A stretch of DNA of 32,293 bases from Clostridia bacterium (GTDB lineage Bacteria > Bacillota > Clostridia > Oscillospirales > SIG627), in the NCBI GenBank assembly GCA_017959745.1, contig JAGDAA010000169.1, positions 1-32,293 of the forward strand, read 5' to 3'. Position numbers and translations under genes: made by a program. Positions 1 through 17,903 of this stretch are shown piece after piece. Under the pieces are notes generated by a model that worked only from the letters and a program-made list of their open reading frames with translations, was not told where the DNA came from and did no database searches. Position 1 is the first letter of the stretch. Each line of letters starts with the position of its first letter.

Positions 1-134
1 GGACGGCTGCCATTTTAGGCAGCGAGTGCTACTTCGTTGTTAGCGTTTGTGTTTAAGGTTGCAGTTTTGAAGAGTTCCTGCCACTCTACCCGCATTTCTC
101 GCTTCAAAAACCCCGTCGAAACCTTTACACCCCC
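1..134 (-). ncRNA. ssrA: tmRNA (transfer-messenger RNA), 5' part; 3' end outside window
   Basis: tmRNA rescues stalled ribosomes by acting first as a tRNA-Ala and then as a short mRNA that adds a degradation tag. On the minus strand the 5' end reads GGGGGTGTAAAGGTTTCGAC, the typical tmRNA 5' acceptor and D-like region. A tag reading frame follows, with a GCA resume codon at 60-62, ATLNTNANNEVALAA and a TAA stop at 15-17. The ending VALAA is the usual type of ClpXP signal. The tRNA-like 3' half with its T arm and CCA lies beyond position 1, so the gene is cut by the window edge, not broken. The exact resume codon is inferred from the usual alanine start of such tags. Confidence 0.93.
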
Positions 135-4680: not shown

Positions 4681-5267
4681 ACGGGATCGGAGGGCGCTTC
4701 CTCCTCGGACGCTTCCTCCATATTCATCTGGACCGAAGTCTCCCCGGGAAGATCATCCAGACTTTCCAGTCCGAAACAGCGGAGAAAATCCGGGGTGGTA
4801 CGGTACAGGATGGGGCGGCCCGGCGCGTCCAGCCGACCGCATTCTTCAATGAGCTTTCGCTGGATCAGGGTGGTCATGATCCCGGTGCAATCCACGCCGC
4901 GCACCTGTTCGATATAGGTTTTCGTGACGGGCTGTTTATAGGCGACGATGGAAAGGGCTTCCAGCGCCGCTTTCGACAGGGGCGCGGTGCGCTTGATCTC
5001 CAGGAAGCTCTGCACGATATCGCCGTATTCCGCTTTTGTACAAAGCTGCAAGGCGTCGCCCAGGCGCGCCAGCTGGAAGGAGGTATTCCCCTCGCGCAAG
5101 CGAGAGTCCAATTCATCCGCCACAACGCCCACTTCCACTTTGGTAATATCGAAGAGCTGGGCGAAACGGTCGCGGGTCACCGGATCACCGCCCGCGAATA
5201 AAACCGCTTCCATAGCGTTGACCCAAAAAGATAGATCCCGACTGAGGAATTGAAGTGAATACTCCAT
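4677..5267 (-). CDS. scpB: Segregation and condensation protein B
   Basis: A 196-residue kleisin-associated winged-helix protein of the SMC-ScpAB condensin complex, which compacts and segregates the chromosome. Family features are clear: AMEAVLFAGGDPVTRDRFAQLF near the start, then two tandem winged-helix domains, with PLSKAALEALSIVAYKQPVTK and IEQVRGVDCTGIMTTLIQRKLIEECGRLDAPGRPILYRTT marking the second. Length is normal for the family. The ATG follows the scpA stop directly (TAA immediately before ATG), so the two subunits are made from adjacent frames. A start at the internal Met (AMEAVLF) would also fit the domain; the upstream ATG is kept because of its tight junction with scpA. Confidence 0.95.
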   Translation of the reverse strand: MEYSLQFLSRDLSFWVNAMEAVLFAGGDPVTRDRFAQLFDITKVEVGVVADELDSRLREGNTSFQLARLGDALQLCTKAEYGDIVQSFLEIKRTAPLSKAALEALSIVAYKQPVTKTYIEQVRGVDCTGIMTTLIQRKLIEECGRLDAPGRPILYRTTPDFLRCFGLESLDDLPGETSVQMNMEEASEEEAPSDPV

Positions 5268-11274: not shown

Positions 11275-11357
11275 GCGGGTATGGCGGAATTGGCAGACGC
11301 GTCGGATTTAGGTTCCGATGGGCAACCGTGCAGGTTCAAGTCCTGTTACCCGTACCA
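11275..11357 (+). tRNA. tRNA-Leu (anticodon UAG)
   Basis: The sequence folds as a class II tRNA. The acceptor arm is GCGGGTA paired with TACCCGT (one G-U pair at position 1-72). The D arm contains AATTGGCAGA. The anticodon stem is TCGGA/TCCGA with loop TTTAGGT, giving anticodon TAG. A long variable arm, TGGGCAACCGT, is followed by the T arm GCAGG-TTCAAGT-CCTGT. The 3' CCA is encoded (11355-11357). Its long variable arm and anticodon identify leucine (CUN codons). It is the only tRNA in the window and marks the left border of the accessory stretch. Confidence 0.96.
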
Positions 11358-11398
11358 TCAAAAACGCGTGATTTGTTTATCAAATCACGCGTTTTTGA
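11358..11398 (+). terminator. Intrinsic terminator after tRNA-Leu
   Basis: A perfect 18-bp stem, TCAAAAACGCGTGATTTG and its reverse complement, with a 5-base loop TTTAT. The right arm ends in GTTTTTGA, giving a U tract in the transcript, and the matching A tract on the left arm would make it work in both directions. It starts at the base after the tRNA CCA. Confidence 0.87.
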
Positions 11399-11400
11399 AT

Positions 11401-11555
11401 CCAAGCCGACGGGAACGGAGGCTTGGTATGTCATCAGCCGCTTTGCGGCTGTATGTCATCACACCGCAGGTGTGTATGTCATCACGCGTTAGCGTGTATG
11501 TCTTCACGCGTTAGCGTGTATGTTTCCCCGTCGGCTTGATGCCATACACGCCTCC
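11401..11555. repeat. Hairpin array 1: small palindromes joined by TATGTCAT linkers
   Basis: A tandem series of five different hairpins joined by an 8-base linker. Hairpin 0 is CCAAGCC/GGCTTGG (11401-11426). The others are CAGCCGC-TTT-GCGGCTG (11435-11451), CACACC-GCA-GGTGTG (11460-11474), CACGC-GTTA-GCGTG (11483-11496) and the same again (11505-11518). Linkers TATGTCAT stand at 11427, 11452 and 11475, TATGTCTT at 11497, and TATG at 11519. The whole is also enclosed by the inverted pair CAAGCCGACGGG (11402-11413) and CCCGTCGGCTTG (11527-11538), with GGAGGC/GCCTCC further in and out. Stem sequences differ but every one is paired, so structure seems to be what is kept. There is no coding sequence. 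The repeats are too short and too palindromic for CRISPR. Confidence 0.85.
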
Positions 11556-15516: not shown

Positions 15517-15741
15517 GATGGCAAATGTTTCATTCTGGATTTCCGGGTCTTTCCGGAGTACAGAGGTAATGGAACAGGCCATGAGTGTGCTCAAGCGCTT
15601 TTTGAATATACAAAGAATGACGGAGCTTTGTACTATGCTCTCAATTATGCAAAAGAAGACTCTCGAAGGTTTTGGCAGTCCCTCGGATTTGCCAAGAATG
15701 GCATAGATGAGTATGGTTCCCCGTTGATGATAAAGATATAG
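15517..15741 (+). pseudogene. GNAT acetyltransferase, C-terminal remnant
   Basis: An open stretch of 74 codons without a start codon encodes the second half of a GNAT N-acetyltransferase. It contains FILDFRVFPEYRGNGTGHE (the acetyl-CoA pyrophosphate loop, normally R/Q-x-x-G-x-G/A), then NYAKEDSRRFWQSLGFAKNG (the terminal helix and GF strand) and a clean end in MIKI. The first 70-80 residues of a normal GNAT protein are missing: upstream in this frame there are two stops and no ATG. A shorter overlapping ORF beginning at 15512 is in another frame and is a shadow. The fragment indicates that a gene was cut here by deletion or insertion. Confidence 0.75.
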
Positions 15742-15830
15742 ATATATTCCGGTTTGTCAGGCTGAATAGCGTGTATCATTTTGGCGCTTTTAGTGATGGT
15801 TACGTATCATTATGACGGTCTTATATACAT

Positions 15831-15869
15831 AAGAAACGCCTTTTGTCTACCAAAAGGCGTTTCTTTTGT
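15831..15869 (+). terminator. Terminator hairpin with TCTAC loop (copy 2)
   Basis: A perfect 15-bp stem, AAGAAACGCCTTTTG and its reverse complement, with loop TCTAC and a T-rich end (TTCTTTTG). It differs from the hairpin at 13738 by two base pairs in the stem, and in both pairs the two arms change together. Confidence 0.85.
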
Positions 15870-15873
15870 GTGT

Positions 15874-16006
15874 TTGTGTCCACAGGACACAACATCGTTT
15901 TTCGCGTCAGCGAAAACATCGTTTGTCGGGGCAATGCCTTATCAACATCATTTTTCAGGATTGCCAAAATCATCATTTTTTCCTGCCGTCGTCAGAAAAT
16001 CATCGT
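15874..16006. repeat. Hairpin array 2: units joined by CATCGT/CATCAT linkers
   Basis: Five linkers, CATCGT at 15893, 15917 and 16001 and CATCAT at 15946 and 15971, recur every 24-30 bases. The pieces between them are palindromic or partly so. They are TTGTGTCC-ACA-GGACACAA (15874-15892), TTTTCGC-GTCA-GCGAAAA (15899-15916), a weaker one with GGCA/TGCC (15923-15945), and two that keep only T-run/A-run ends (15952-15969 and 15977-15999). On the minus strand the unit begins AAYGATGWT. The design is the same as array 1 with a different linker. There is no coding sequence. The 15742-16067 gap holds only this array and the two terminators beside it. Confidence 0.75.
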
Positions 16007-16015
16007 TTTTTCGCA

Positions 16016-16048
16016 TAAAAATCGGGCGACCCTTTCGGGCCGCCCGAT
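16016..16048 (-). terminator. Intrinsic terminator of the opp operon
   Basis: On the minus strand AATCGGGCGGCCCGAAAGGG folds back on TCGCCCGATT and is followed by TTTTATG. The strong GC stem with a TTTC/GAAA loop and a T tract, 20 bases after the oppA stop, is a standard rho-independent terminator. Confidence 0.88.
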
Positions 16049-16067
16049 TCTGTTTGGTAAATAGCGA

Positions 16068-17903
16068 TTATTTAACGGTGGTATACATGAAGAACTTGTA
16101 GCCCAGCGGGTTGGAGAAGAAGCCGTCCACGTCCTTGGAGATCATATAGATATCCGTGTAGAAGTAGAGAGGCACGATGCAGCCGGTGGACATCAGAATA
16201 TCCTCGGCGTAGTGCATCAGTTCGTACCGGGTCTCATTGTCGGTGCATGCCTTGATGGCGGCGATAAGCACGTCATAGGTCTCCGCCCAGGTGCCGTTCT
16301 CGACCTTAGTATCCAAGCCGTAAGGGGTAAGATCCAGGCTGTAGCCGGTCACCTTCGCGTGATCGCCCTTACCGAACTGGACGTCGTTGTTGCCGGAGGC
16401 GGTGGTCCACATATCCAGGAAGCAGATGGGATCGTTGTAGTCCGCCAGCCAACCGTTACGAGCGATGGAATAATCGCCGTTCTTACGGGTCTGCAGGAAG
16501 GTCGCCCACTCCTGATTCTCCAGATTCATGGTGATACCGATGTTAGACAGGGCGCTCTGCAAATATTCGCCGATCGCCTTGTGACCTTCGCTGGTGTTAT
16601 ACAGGTAGGTCATAGTCGGGAAGTCGGTGAACTTCTTAGAGGTTTCGTCAAACTTGTAGTATTTCTTCAGGGTCTCAACAGCGGAATCGTAGTTCTTTTC
16701 GATCGCTTCCTTGGAAACGTCGTAGTAACCGTCGAAATCTTTGCTGTCACCGGCAGTCTTGTAGAATTCGGTGCCGTCGGGATTGGTCATACCCATGGCA
16801 ACGAAGGAAGACGCGGGGACCTGACCCGCCTGACCGATCTCTTCCACAATGTAATTGCGGTCGAACAGGAGGGCGATGGCGTTGCGGATCTCGGCGCGGG
16901 CTGCTTCCGCTTCTTCACCGGTAAGGGTGCTGCCGGCGGGCAGGATATCTTCGTTCACGTTCCAGCAAACATAGTAGGTACCGATCTGACCGGTGATCTT
17001 GAATTCATCGGGATAAGTGGTCTTCAGATTGGCGATCTCGTTGGTGGGAACGTCGTCGATCAGCTGCCAGGTGCCGTTCTTGAAGTTGGAAAGCTGGTTG
17101 TTGGCGTCATCGGACAGATAGAACTCGATGGTGTCCATGGTGATTTCCGCGGCGTCAACAAAGTTTTCGTTCTTCTTCAGGGTGATCAGGCTGTTGTGCT
17201 CCCAGGAATCAAGGGTGTAGGCGCCGTTGCACACATAGGTGGCGGGATCGGTCGCCCAGGACTCATTGGAAACCACGTCTTCGCGTACCGGGAAGTACAC
17301 CGGGAACGCGAGGAGCTCATTCCAGTAGGAAACAGCGTTGGAGATGGTGACAACGATGGTGCTGTCATCGGGGGCTTCCACGTTCAGCTTCGCGTCGGGG
17401 TTGACGGGCTTGCCGTCGTCGTCAGCTTCGCTGATCTCTTCGTAACCGTCCACAATCTCGAACATGTAACCGTAGTCGGCGCCCAGTTCGGCGGAAGCGG
17501 CGCGGTTCCAGGCAAAGACAAAGTCACTTGCCTTCAAAGGTTGTCCATCGGACCACTTGAGCCCGTCGCGCAGGGTGTAGGTGTAGGTGACAGTACCGTC
17601 CTCGTTGGCAACGCCTTCCACCAGTTCCTTCGCGGCGTCGGGAACGATCTCGAACTTGCCGGCATCATCTTGTTTCCATTTGGCAAGGCCGGAGAACAGG
17701 TGTACCAGCAAAGTCGCGCCGTCCACCGCGGAGTTCAGCGCGGGATCGATGGTGTCCGGCTCGGAGCCGACACACACGGCGAGGGGTTGGCTGGCGTCAC
17801 CGGCGTTTTCTCCCTTGGTGGCAGGCTGCTGTTCACCGCTGCCGCAAGCGACGAGAGAAAAGACCATAACGAAAGCCAACGCAAATGCAAGGATCTTTTT
17901 CAT
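16068..17903 (-). CDS. oppA: Oligopeptide ABC transporter, substrate-binding lipoprotein
   Basis: A 611-residue extracellular solute-binding protein (SBP family 5) that captures peptides and delivers them to the OppBC channel. The signal peptide ends in the lipobox LVAC (Cys20), so it is lipid-anchored. Family features include GSEPDTIDPALNSAVDGATLL at the mature start, TYTLRDGLKWSDGQPLKASDFVFAW near 120-145 and WLADYNDPICFLDMW late in the protein. The ATG at 17903 is used because it opens the signal peptide and has AGAAAGGAAAT before it. It is the last gene of the operon, separated from oppF by 60 bases that hold a palindrome. Peptide preference cannot be read from sequence. Confidence 0.95.
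   Translation of the reverse strand: MKKILAFALAFVMVFSLVACGSGEQQPATKGENAGDASQPLAVCVGSEPDTIDPALNSAVDGATLLVHLFSGLAKWKQDDAGKFEIVPDAAKELVEGVANEDGTVTYTYTLRDGLKWSDGQPLKASDFVFAWNRAASAELGADYGYMFEIVDGYEEISEADDDGKPVNPDAKLNVEAPDDSTIVVTISNAVSYWNELLAFPVYFPVREDVVSNESWATDPATYVCNGAYTLDSWEHNSLITLKKNENFVDAAEITMDTIEFYLSDDANNQLSNFKNGTWQLIDDVPTNEIANLKTTYPDEFKITGQIGTYYVCWNVNEDILPAGSTLTGEEAEAARAEIRNAIALLFDRNYIVEEIGQAGQVPASSFVAMGMTNPDGTEFYKTAGDSKDFDGYYDVSKEAIEKNYDSAVETLKKYYKFDETSKKFTDFPTMTYLYNTSEGHKAIGEYLQSALSNIGITMNLENQEWATFLQTRKNGDYSIARNGWLADYNDPICFLDMWTTASGNNDVQFGKGDHAKVTGYSLDLTPYGLDTKVENGTWAETYDVLIAAIKACTDNETRYELMHYAEDILMSTGCIVPLYFYTDIYMISKDVDGFFSNPLGYKFFMYTTVK

Follow-up and report, generated by a model that had tools for sequence, protein, structure and literature searches.

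The stretch of DNA analyzed here (the window, 32,293 nt of a contig assigned to a Clostridia bacterium) contains an array in which short linkers alternate with hairpins directly behind a transcription terminator, and the question it raises is what such an array is and how it came to stand there. The favored reading, with a probability of about 0.62, is that it belongs to a class of small mobile elements, as a partly decayed copy of half size that has no gene, with its linker serving as the recognition sequence of a cognate PF05635 protein.

Five copies of CATCRTT were found at 15893, 15917, 15946, 15971 and 16001, giving spacings of 24, 29, 25 and 30 nt and a span of 139 nt. Dinucleotide shuffles of the array stretch contained a mean of 0.29 copies and a maximum of 3, with five or more reached in 0 of 5,000, while the rest of the window (starts 15701–16049 excluded) has at most one copy per 140-nt stretch. 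This agrees with an earlier, sequence-only reading of the DNA, which had described five linkers at 24–30 nt spacing directly behind a strong terminator hairpin; the array starts 4 nt past the hairpin at 15827–15869. The linker had been given as CATCGT/CATCAT, which is present, with the unit being better read as the 7-mer AACATCR (ATCATCR for the last two), of which 5 nt (CATCR) sit between the stems. The description of the intervening units as palindromic or T-run/A-run stood in part: two are clean hairpins, that at the terminator-proximal end and TTTTCGC-GTCA-GCGAAAA, with the remaining three being imperfect or barely above a T-run/A-run. The array and its borders are composed as follows.

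15827–15869, plus strand: intrinsic-terminator hairpin ACATAAGAAACGCCTTTTG..CAAAAGGCGTTTCTTTTGT, with the array directly behind it (inverted repeat I4, 95% complementary)
15874–15892, plus strand: first hairpin TTGTGTCC-ACA-GGACACAA, the terminator-proximal end hairpin common to the subfamily (from sequence)
15893–15897, plus strand: linker 1, CATCG (7-mer AACATCG at 15891–15897)
15898–15916, plus strand: hairpin unit TTTTTCGC-GTCA-GCGAAAA (from sequence and fold)
15917–15921, plus strand: linker 2, CATCG
15922–15945, plus strand: decayed hairpin unit (from sequence)
15946–15950, plus strand: linker 3, CATCA
15951–15970, plus strand: decayed hairpin unit, T-run/A-run (from sequence)
15971–15975, plus strand: linker 4, CATCA
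15976–16000, plus strand: imperfect hairpin unit TTTT-C-CTG..CAG-AAAA (from sequence)
16001–16005, plus strand: linker 5, CATCG, with no inverted YGATG arm beyond it (by comparison with the copy on contig C71, locus L234)
16020–16049, minus strand: terminator hairpin of the convergent SBP_bac_5 gene, abutting the array (inverted repeat I8; gene by Pfam)

Folded as single-stranded DNA, the array beats 200 of 200 shuffles (z -2.93), and an end hairpin of the GTGTCC or GTGCC type, as at 15874–15892, was seen again in relatives. The array is intergenic, lying between the terminator and the SBP gene and outside any 23S rRNA helix. The only window matches to Rfam 15 at gathering score were tmRNA and tRNA, leaving the arrays unmatched, and a blastn comparison of 15820–16070 with plasmids gave no match. 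No PF05635 gene was found beside the array in ORF and Pfam searches. The window sequence between 15870 and 16100 has no mirrored YGATG arm and three of the hairpins are worn; the copy is read as a gene-less half copy. The nearest SBP homologue is 40% identical, too distant for the array site to be aligned, and an empty orthologous site was not readable. Terminators adjoining arrays often share a loop like TTTTGTCTACCAAAA (window 15840–15862, and loci L169, L178, L185, L336, L002 and L093), which may either belong to the target or be a separate repeat. The tmRNA gene (window 1–134, minus strand) is truncated by the contig end.

A further array of the window, array 1, lies at a tRNA gene.

11275–11354, plus strand: tRNA gene, host site of array 1 (Rfam tRNA)
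11358–11398, plus strand: terminator hairpin of the tRNA gene (inverted repeat I3)
11400–11551, plus strand: array 1, of a sister subfamily, with a long-range stem GCCGACGGG/CCCGTCGGC around the linkers (inverted repeats, sequence)
11427, 11452 and 11475, plus strand: array 1 linkers TATGTCATCA
11497, plus strand: array 1 linker TATGTCTTCA
About 11538: inverted linker TGATGCCATACA of array 1

From our reading of the anticodon-loop sequence, the tRNA gene at 11275–11354 is probably one for tRNA-Leu. The sequence-only reading had judged the two arrays to be of the same architecture, with GATG on the minus strand in the linkers of both. It was right on both counts. Array 1 follows the same plan, past a tRNA gene with its terminator hairpin. 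Its linker TATGTCATCA recurs within the own genome on contigs C69, C102 and C162, and in one of 58 genomes; sister copies were found past tRNA-Ala on C102 and on C69, there with a second arm and a TATAAT box downstream.

The linker pattern of the window proved to be neither unique to this locus nor at the shuffled level. The pattern CATCRTTTN{8,32}CATCRTTT gave eight matches on three contigs of the own genome (G000) and none when reversed. It was found in 27 of 58 relatives, with up to 23 matches in one genome (G020), the reversed control giving at most one per genome. Matches within the same family are mostly hairpins (e.g., CATCATTTGCGAAGCAAACATCATTT), and many of the single matches in distant relatives are without hairpins and look like chance. 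A stricter pattern run over a wider contig collection returned at least 117 stretches, a lower bound for the spread. Among the 80 stretches listed, 70 are titled Clostridia, Oscillospiraceae or bacteria without another phylum and 10 name other phyla; the other-phylum stretches inspected (L065, L076, L079, L080, L085, L124) are plain direct repeats. Together with many further linkers in the same layout, the presence of the window linker in 27 of 58 relatives supports the earlier suggestion that these are elements of one general class, the linker marking off its subfamilies. The elements that encode PF05635, the inverted second arm and the half state of the window copy go beyond that reading.

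Complete elements are built of two mirrored parts. With the terminator at the left, it is followed by the end hairpin TTTGTGTCC..GGACACAA (or GTGCC..GGCAC) and a CATCR arm of two to five linkers with hairpins between them; to the right are the centre, a YGATG arm, likewise with hairpins between its linkers, and a distal hairpin TTGCGC..GCGCAA. At several loci a TATAAT box lies 17 nt past the TTGCRC of the distal hairpin, followed by a gene. Counts were made on 53 of 62 distinct L..R elements, being those with a recognisable terminator-side end. The centre is the complement of the end hairpin and covaries with it, GTGTCC occurring with GGACAC in 26 and GTGCC with GGCAC in 22, with one mismatched and four untyped (n = 53, relatedness ignored). 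A tRNA gene lies upstream on the same strand in 25 of the 48 complete elements with enough flank, and on the opposite strand in none, while a T5 run is present within 75 nt in 45 of 48. Stems of at least 5 bp were found in 97 of 130 distinct spacers compared with 1% of shuffled spacers (an offset of 0–2 nt on each side was allowed, shuffles included; the arms carry extra T), and therefore the stems vary while the linkers stay. The number of units also differs between copies. The own genome has a complete copy on C71, with a CATCR arm like that of the window, an inverted arm and a PF05635 gene, and its array folds with a z of -6.86. Rfam 15 gave no family on the arrays of this locus (L234) or of L305, L247, L148, L178 and L209. 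Two Gut-1 RNAs (RF01706; L148:299–373 and 4915–4985) lie less than 5 kb from a complete array of the CATCR/YGATG type and do not overlap it.

The ORF behind the arm on C71 was identified as PF05635 (23S_rRNA_IVP, E 2.6e-27) and also matches the TIGR02436 four helix bundle protein (E 2.7e-29), with 2rld (E 1.5e-23) and, weakly, 2gsc as structural relatives of its product. The Xanthomonas S23p structure is described in a paper of 2016 as a homopentameric torus (PMC4990558). The C71-type protein was unmatched as a defence gene in PADLOC. PF05635 matches occur in 36 of 58 relatives, and 70 loci (30 + 40), part of all matches, were read. A 6-mer repeated above the level of 60 shuffles was found in the 300 nt upstream in 49 of 71 PF05635 cases, the other 22 having no array above the shuffles (71 of 72 cases counted, one having no flank); where a tRNA precedes the gene this rises to 26 of 28. 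Other ORFs of at least 120 aa in the same loci served as controls, and 68 of 72 PF05635 matches were kept, those with less than 300 nt upstream being dropped. Arms of at least three linkers in both orientations accompany 30 of 68 PF05635 genes and 4 of 142 control ORFs (Fisher 1.7e-13; loci not independent), and three of these four controls show the linker of their own locus's PF05635 array. A same-strand tRNA within 450 nt upstream was found for 28 of 68 genes compared with 0 of 142 controls (Fisher 1.9e-16; loci not independent). Among the complete arrays, 20 of 46 have a PF05635 gene downstream and 26 are without an adjoining one. Small membrane or lipoprotein genes often lie downstream of arrays of the latter kind (L015, L064, L070, L072, L152), with a promoter and leader resembling those of PF05635 genes, and are possible cargo.

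The linkers at PF05635 loci differ, with GTGAAG, GTGATG, GTGATAT, GTTATAT, ATGAAAT, ATGAAG, TGAATTG, GCTAAAT, AATGAAT and more being found; GTGAAG, GTGATAT, ATGAAAT, ATGAAG, TGAATTG, AATGAAT and others are arranged in the same way downstream of tRNA genes and terminators. The window linker AACATCR/YGATGTT adjoins 24 PF05635 genes of one tree group, that of C71 included. On a tree of 71 proteins, 13 linker groups needed 12 changes, which is the minimum, whereas shuffled labels needed a mean of 44.8 and were as low in 0 of 200; the tree has few columns, with 29 of 66 inner branches open, and linker labels were assigned by hand. It comprises 51 of the 70 loci L165–L234 (nameable linker, protein of at least 90 aa) and 20 of the 24 AACATCR-group genes, leaving out L002 (a duplicate of C71), L019, L088 and L116. 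Single linker groups need one to three changes, with TGATAT, TGAAAT, ATGAAG and AGTGAAG each needing more than one. In a label-free test on 64 proteins, the top repeated 6-mer was common to 0 of 148 pairs below 35% identity and to 13 of 15 above 85%; for pairs below 70% identity r was 0.22, with 0 of 2,000 permutations as high. Pairs from the same genome below 45% identity had a common top 6-mer in 0 of 33. G020 alone holds the TGATAT, TGAATTG and YGATGTT types, and one linker type is found in several families; therefore the host does not explain the linker. The simplest reason for this joint change would be that the protein reads the linker, and we infer from the tree that it probably binds it, the alternative being that gene and leader are inherited together by shared descent. 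The PF05635 protein of a MAG titled Lentisphaeria (L134) has an identical counterpart in G020 (L218), which is either a binning error or a recent transfer.

These results bear on the possibility that the arrays are terminator hairpins which grew by passive replication slippage in A/T-rich spacers, with no partner protein. The location behind terminators and the variable number of units would suit such growth. It is already contradicted, however, by the shuffles, none of 5,000 of which reached five linkers, by stem sequences which differ between units where the linkers agree, and by the occurrence of one linker across families and of different linkers within one genome, matching the protein. 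We regard it as having next to no likelihood.

Mobility is suggested by orthologous sites. Between a DUF59 gene and lpxH, genome G067 has a gap of 458 nt in which the element begins right after the stop codon. Gaps without an element are 0, 5, 6, 22, 34 and 46 nt and those with heptamers and no gene are 29, 30, 62 and 140 nt, one of 125 nt being ambiguous (of 28 loci, 12 yielded a gap; the pattern gave no LpxH start in 14, and in two the end of the upstream gene was not found). At the grpE-dnaK site, five genomes with DnaK 92–100% identical are filled, with 608–628 nt comprising an arm, the gene and an inverted arm, whereas three genomes at 93–97% DnaK identity are empty, at 36, 78 and 43 nt, and two at 90% have 25–41 nt. 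Of 30 loci at this site, the pattern yielded a gap in 21, while two had no dnaK start and seven no grpE end; the long gaps of L319 and L331 are other sequence and were excluded from the filled count. As filled and empty orthologous sites both exist, the element therefore comes and goes, with the sites alone fitting insertion or loss. No target-site duplication was recognised at either site. At grpE-dnaK, the sequence at the left junction repeats the grpE end in inverted form (GCAAACTAAC..GTTAGTTTGC, and in another genome GCGAACTAAC..GTTAGTTCGC) and stays complementary where the gene end differs between genomes (L305, L308, L309, L310, L312), which is a hint of a fold-back step.

The main rival is a purely regulatory role, in which the arrays would serve as operators, in RNA or DNA, for a regulatory PF05635 protein binding the linkers in its own leader (autoregulation) and in those of other genes, much as CsrA-type proteins are bound by repeats. 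At several Clostridia loci the second arm does overlap the -35 box of the next gene's promoter, the gene beginning within about 120 nt, and a post-transcriptional role has been proposed for TAACTGA heptamers (MacGregor, 2015; PMC4679880), with S1, Csp and Csr as candidate binders. However, arms are also found behind the gene and between unrelated gene pairs, close relatives differ in whether a given site holds an array, and the neighbours showed no common function. We therefore consider such a role unlikely, though the most serious of the alternatives.

The association of PF05635 genes with repeats was also found in other phyla. PF05635 was present in 3 of 11 genomes searched, the cyanobacterium Tildeniella, a Bacteroidetes MAG and a Prevotellaceae MAG, and the 12 genes read there sit amid heptamer repeats which are mostly inverted across the gene, as at L242 with CTGAGAACTGAGAATTGAGAACTGAGA before the gene and TCTCAGTTCTCAACTCTCAGTTCTCAG behind it. 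A strict 6-mer count covered these genes and ten more from two Clostridia genomes: 12 of the 22 PF05635 genes, and 2 of 30 control ORFs, are flanked by inverted arrays, while both arms lie upstream of 3 of 22 genes and of 2 of 30 controls. Arm placement differs: where Clostridia elements follow tRNA genes, both arms precede the PF05635 gene, and in the other phyla they flank it. The one class may be two.

Cyanobacterial STRRs are heptamer direct repeats. The published heptamer repeats of Cyanobacteria, Beggiatoaceae and Bacteroidetes (TAACTGA; PMC4679880) have a 7-nt period, are intergenic and are gained and lost between relatives. The PF05635 genes of the cyanobacterium and of the two Bacteroidota genomes lie inside such arrays, which, unlike those described here, have no hairpins between units. 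For their spread between bacteria "no mechanism is evident" (PMC4679880), and searching that text gave no mention of S23, 23S rRNA or a four helix bundle.

The same protein family is encoded by intervening sequences (IVSs) of 23S rRNA with an S23p/IVP ORF, as in Coxiella burnetii, where three tandem GACAGAT heptamers, in strain-dependent number, precede the ORF (PMC4990558). This passage was met after the pattern had emerged here. The likeness to the present elements extends to complementary borders, to tandem heptamers of variable number before the ORF and to a position in or next to the hairpin of a stable RNA gene. RNase III excision from pre-rRNA is a further feature of the IVS class. The elements described here differ in lying outside rRNA, in their multi-linker arms with hairpins between and in having gene-less copies, the window copy being without an ORF and its C71 partner having that of PF05635. 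IVSs have been called selfish and of unclear origin, and the function of the S23 protein has likewise been called unclear (PMC4990558).

REP/REPIN-RAYT systems consist of intergenic palindromes with a constant tag, in mirrored pairs and gene-less copies, with one cognate protein per repeat family. The elements here resemble them as multicopy, mirrored intergenic palindromes, the window copy being one arm, and spread of REP/BIME-like repeats by a RAYT (Y1 transposase) would account for the many copies, the constant short tag and the mirrored arms. The tag here is CATCR/YGATG, neither the GTAG nor the CGTC that reportedly marks the base of REP stems, and the arms have about 3–5 linkers. The protein is a four-helix bundle without a known catalytic site and not a Y1 transposase. 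A RAYT partner was rejected: Y1_Tnp (PF01797) is found in 25 of 58 relatives and is missing from the array-rich G000, G007, G016, G020 and G021, an absence which is not final as the own genome is 76.75% complete and several others are incomplete. We judge spread by RAYT to be highly improbable.

A somewhat better, though still poor, prospect is a reverse-transcribed non-coding RNA on which PF05635 acts as Avd does in diversity-generating retroelements. The two proteins are of related fold families (PMC10053308), and the arrays are structured and terminator-flanked. However, no reverse transcriptase was found with the elements here. RVT_1 is present in only 13 of 58 relatives and absent in G000, G003, G009, G012, G017, G020 and G036, each with 2–8 PF05635 genes, and this partner was rejected on its absence from most PF05635-rich genomes, several of which are incomplete. 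Variable-length palindromic units also argue against an integron attC or CRISPR array.

The favored explanation, that of a small mobile element class, may work as follows. Its members would be built from inverted arms of a short linker, here AACATCR/YGATGTT, usually between hairpins, with complete members adding the gene for a PF05635 four-helix-bundle protein (23S rRNA intervening-sequence/S23 family, Avd relatives). Between the hairpins the linkers would be left as exposed single-stranded bridges of short length, and the protein, the solved relative of which is a pentameric ring, could bind several linkers of one arm at once, matching ring to linkers. The protein-bound arms would be what moves or is copied, the complex most likely directing copying or insertion behind terminators. 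Landing would be favored just past intrinsic terminators, most of all the terminators of tRNA genes, and also between the stop and start codons of neighbours. Gene-less arrays such as that of the window may have been copied in trans or left behind.

A literature search, with preprints and most subscription papers outside its scope, gave no paper tying PF05635 genes in general to repeat arrays. REP-RAYT pairs are known, as are IVSs and heptamer repeats; as far as could be seen, a class joining IVSs and heptamer repeats with hairpin arrays is undescribed. We would give even odds to the wider proposal that PF05635 is the sequence-reading half of minimal mobile elements across phyla, without a transposase or reverse transcriptase of their own and each lineage with its own 5–7 nt linker. 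The 23S rRNA IVSs, the cyanobacterial and Bacteroidota heptamers and the tRNA-terminator hairpin arrays of gut Clostridia would be its members, and arrays of the window type its gene-less passengers.

Three puzzles meet at this locus, namely the role of the S23 protein, the spread of heptamer repeats and the hairpin arrays behind the tRNA terminators of gut Clostridia. If the PF05635 ring binds its own linker and not that of a neighbouring family, a family of unknown function would turn out to provide sequence recognition in a mobile element of a new kind, and many natural protein-linker pairs would be at hand for comparison.
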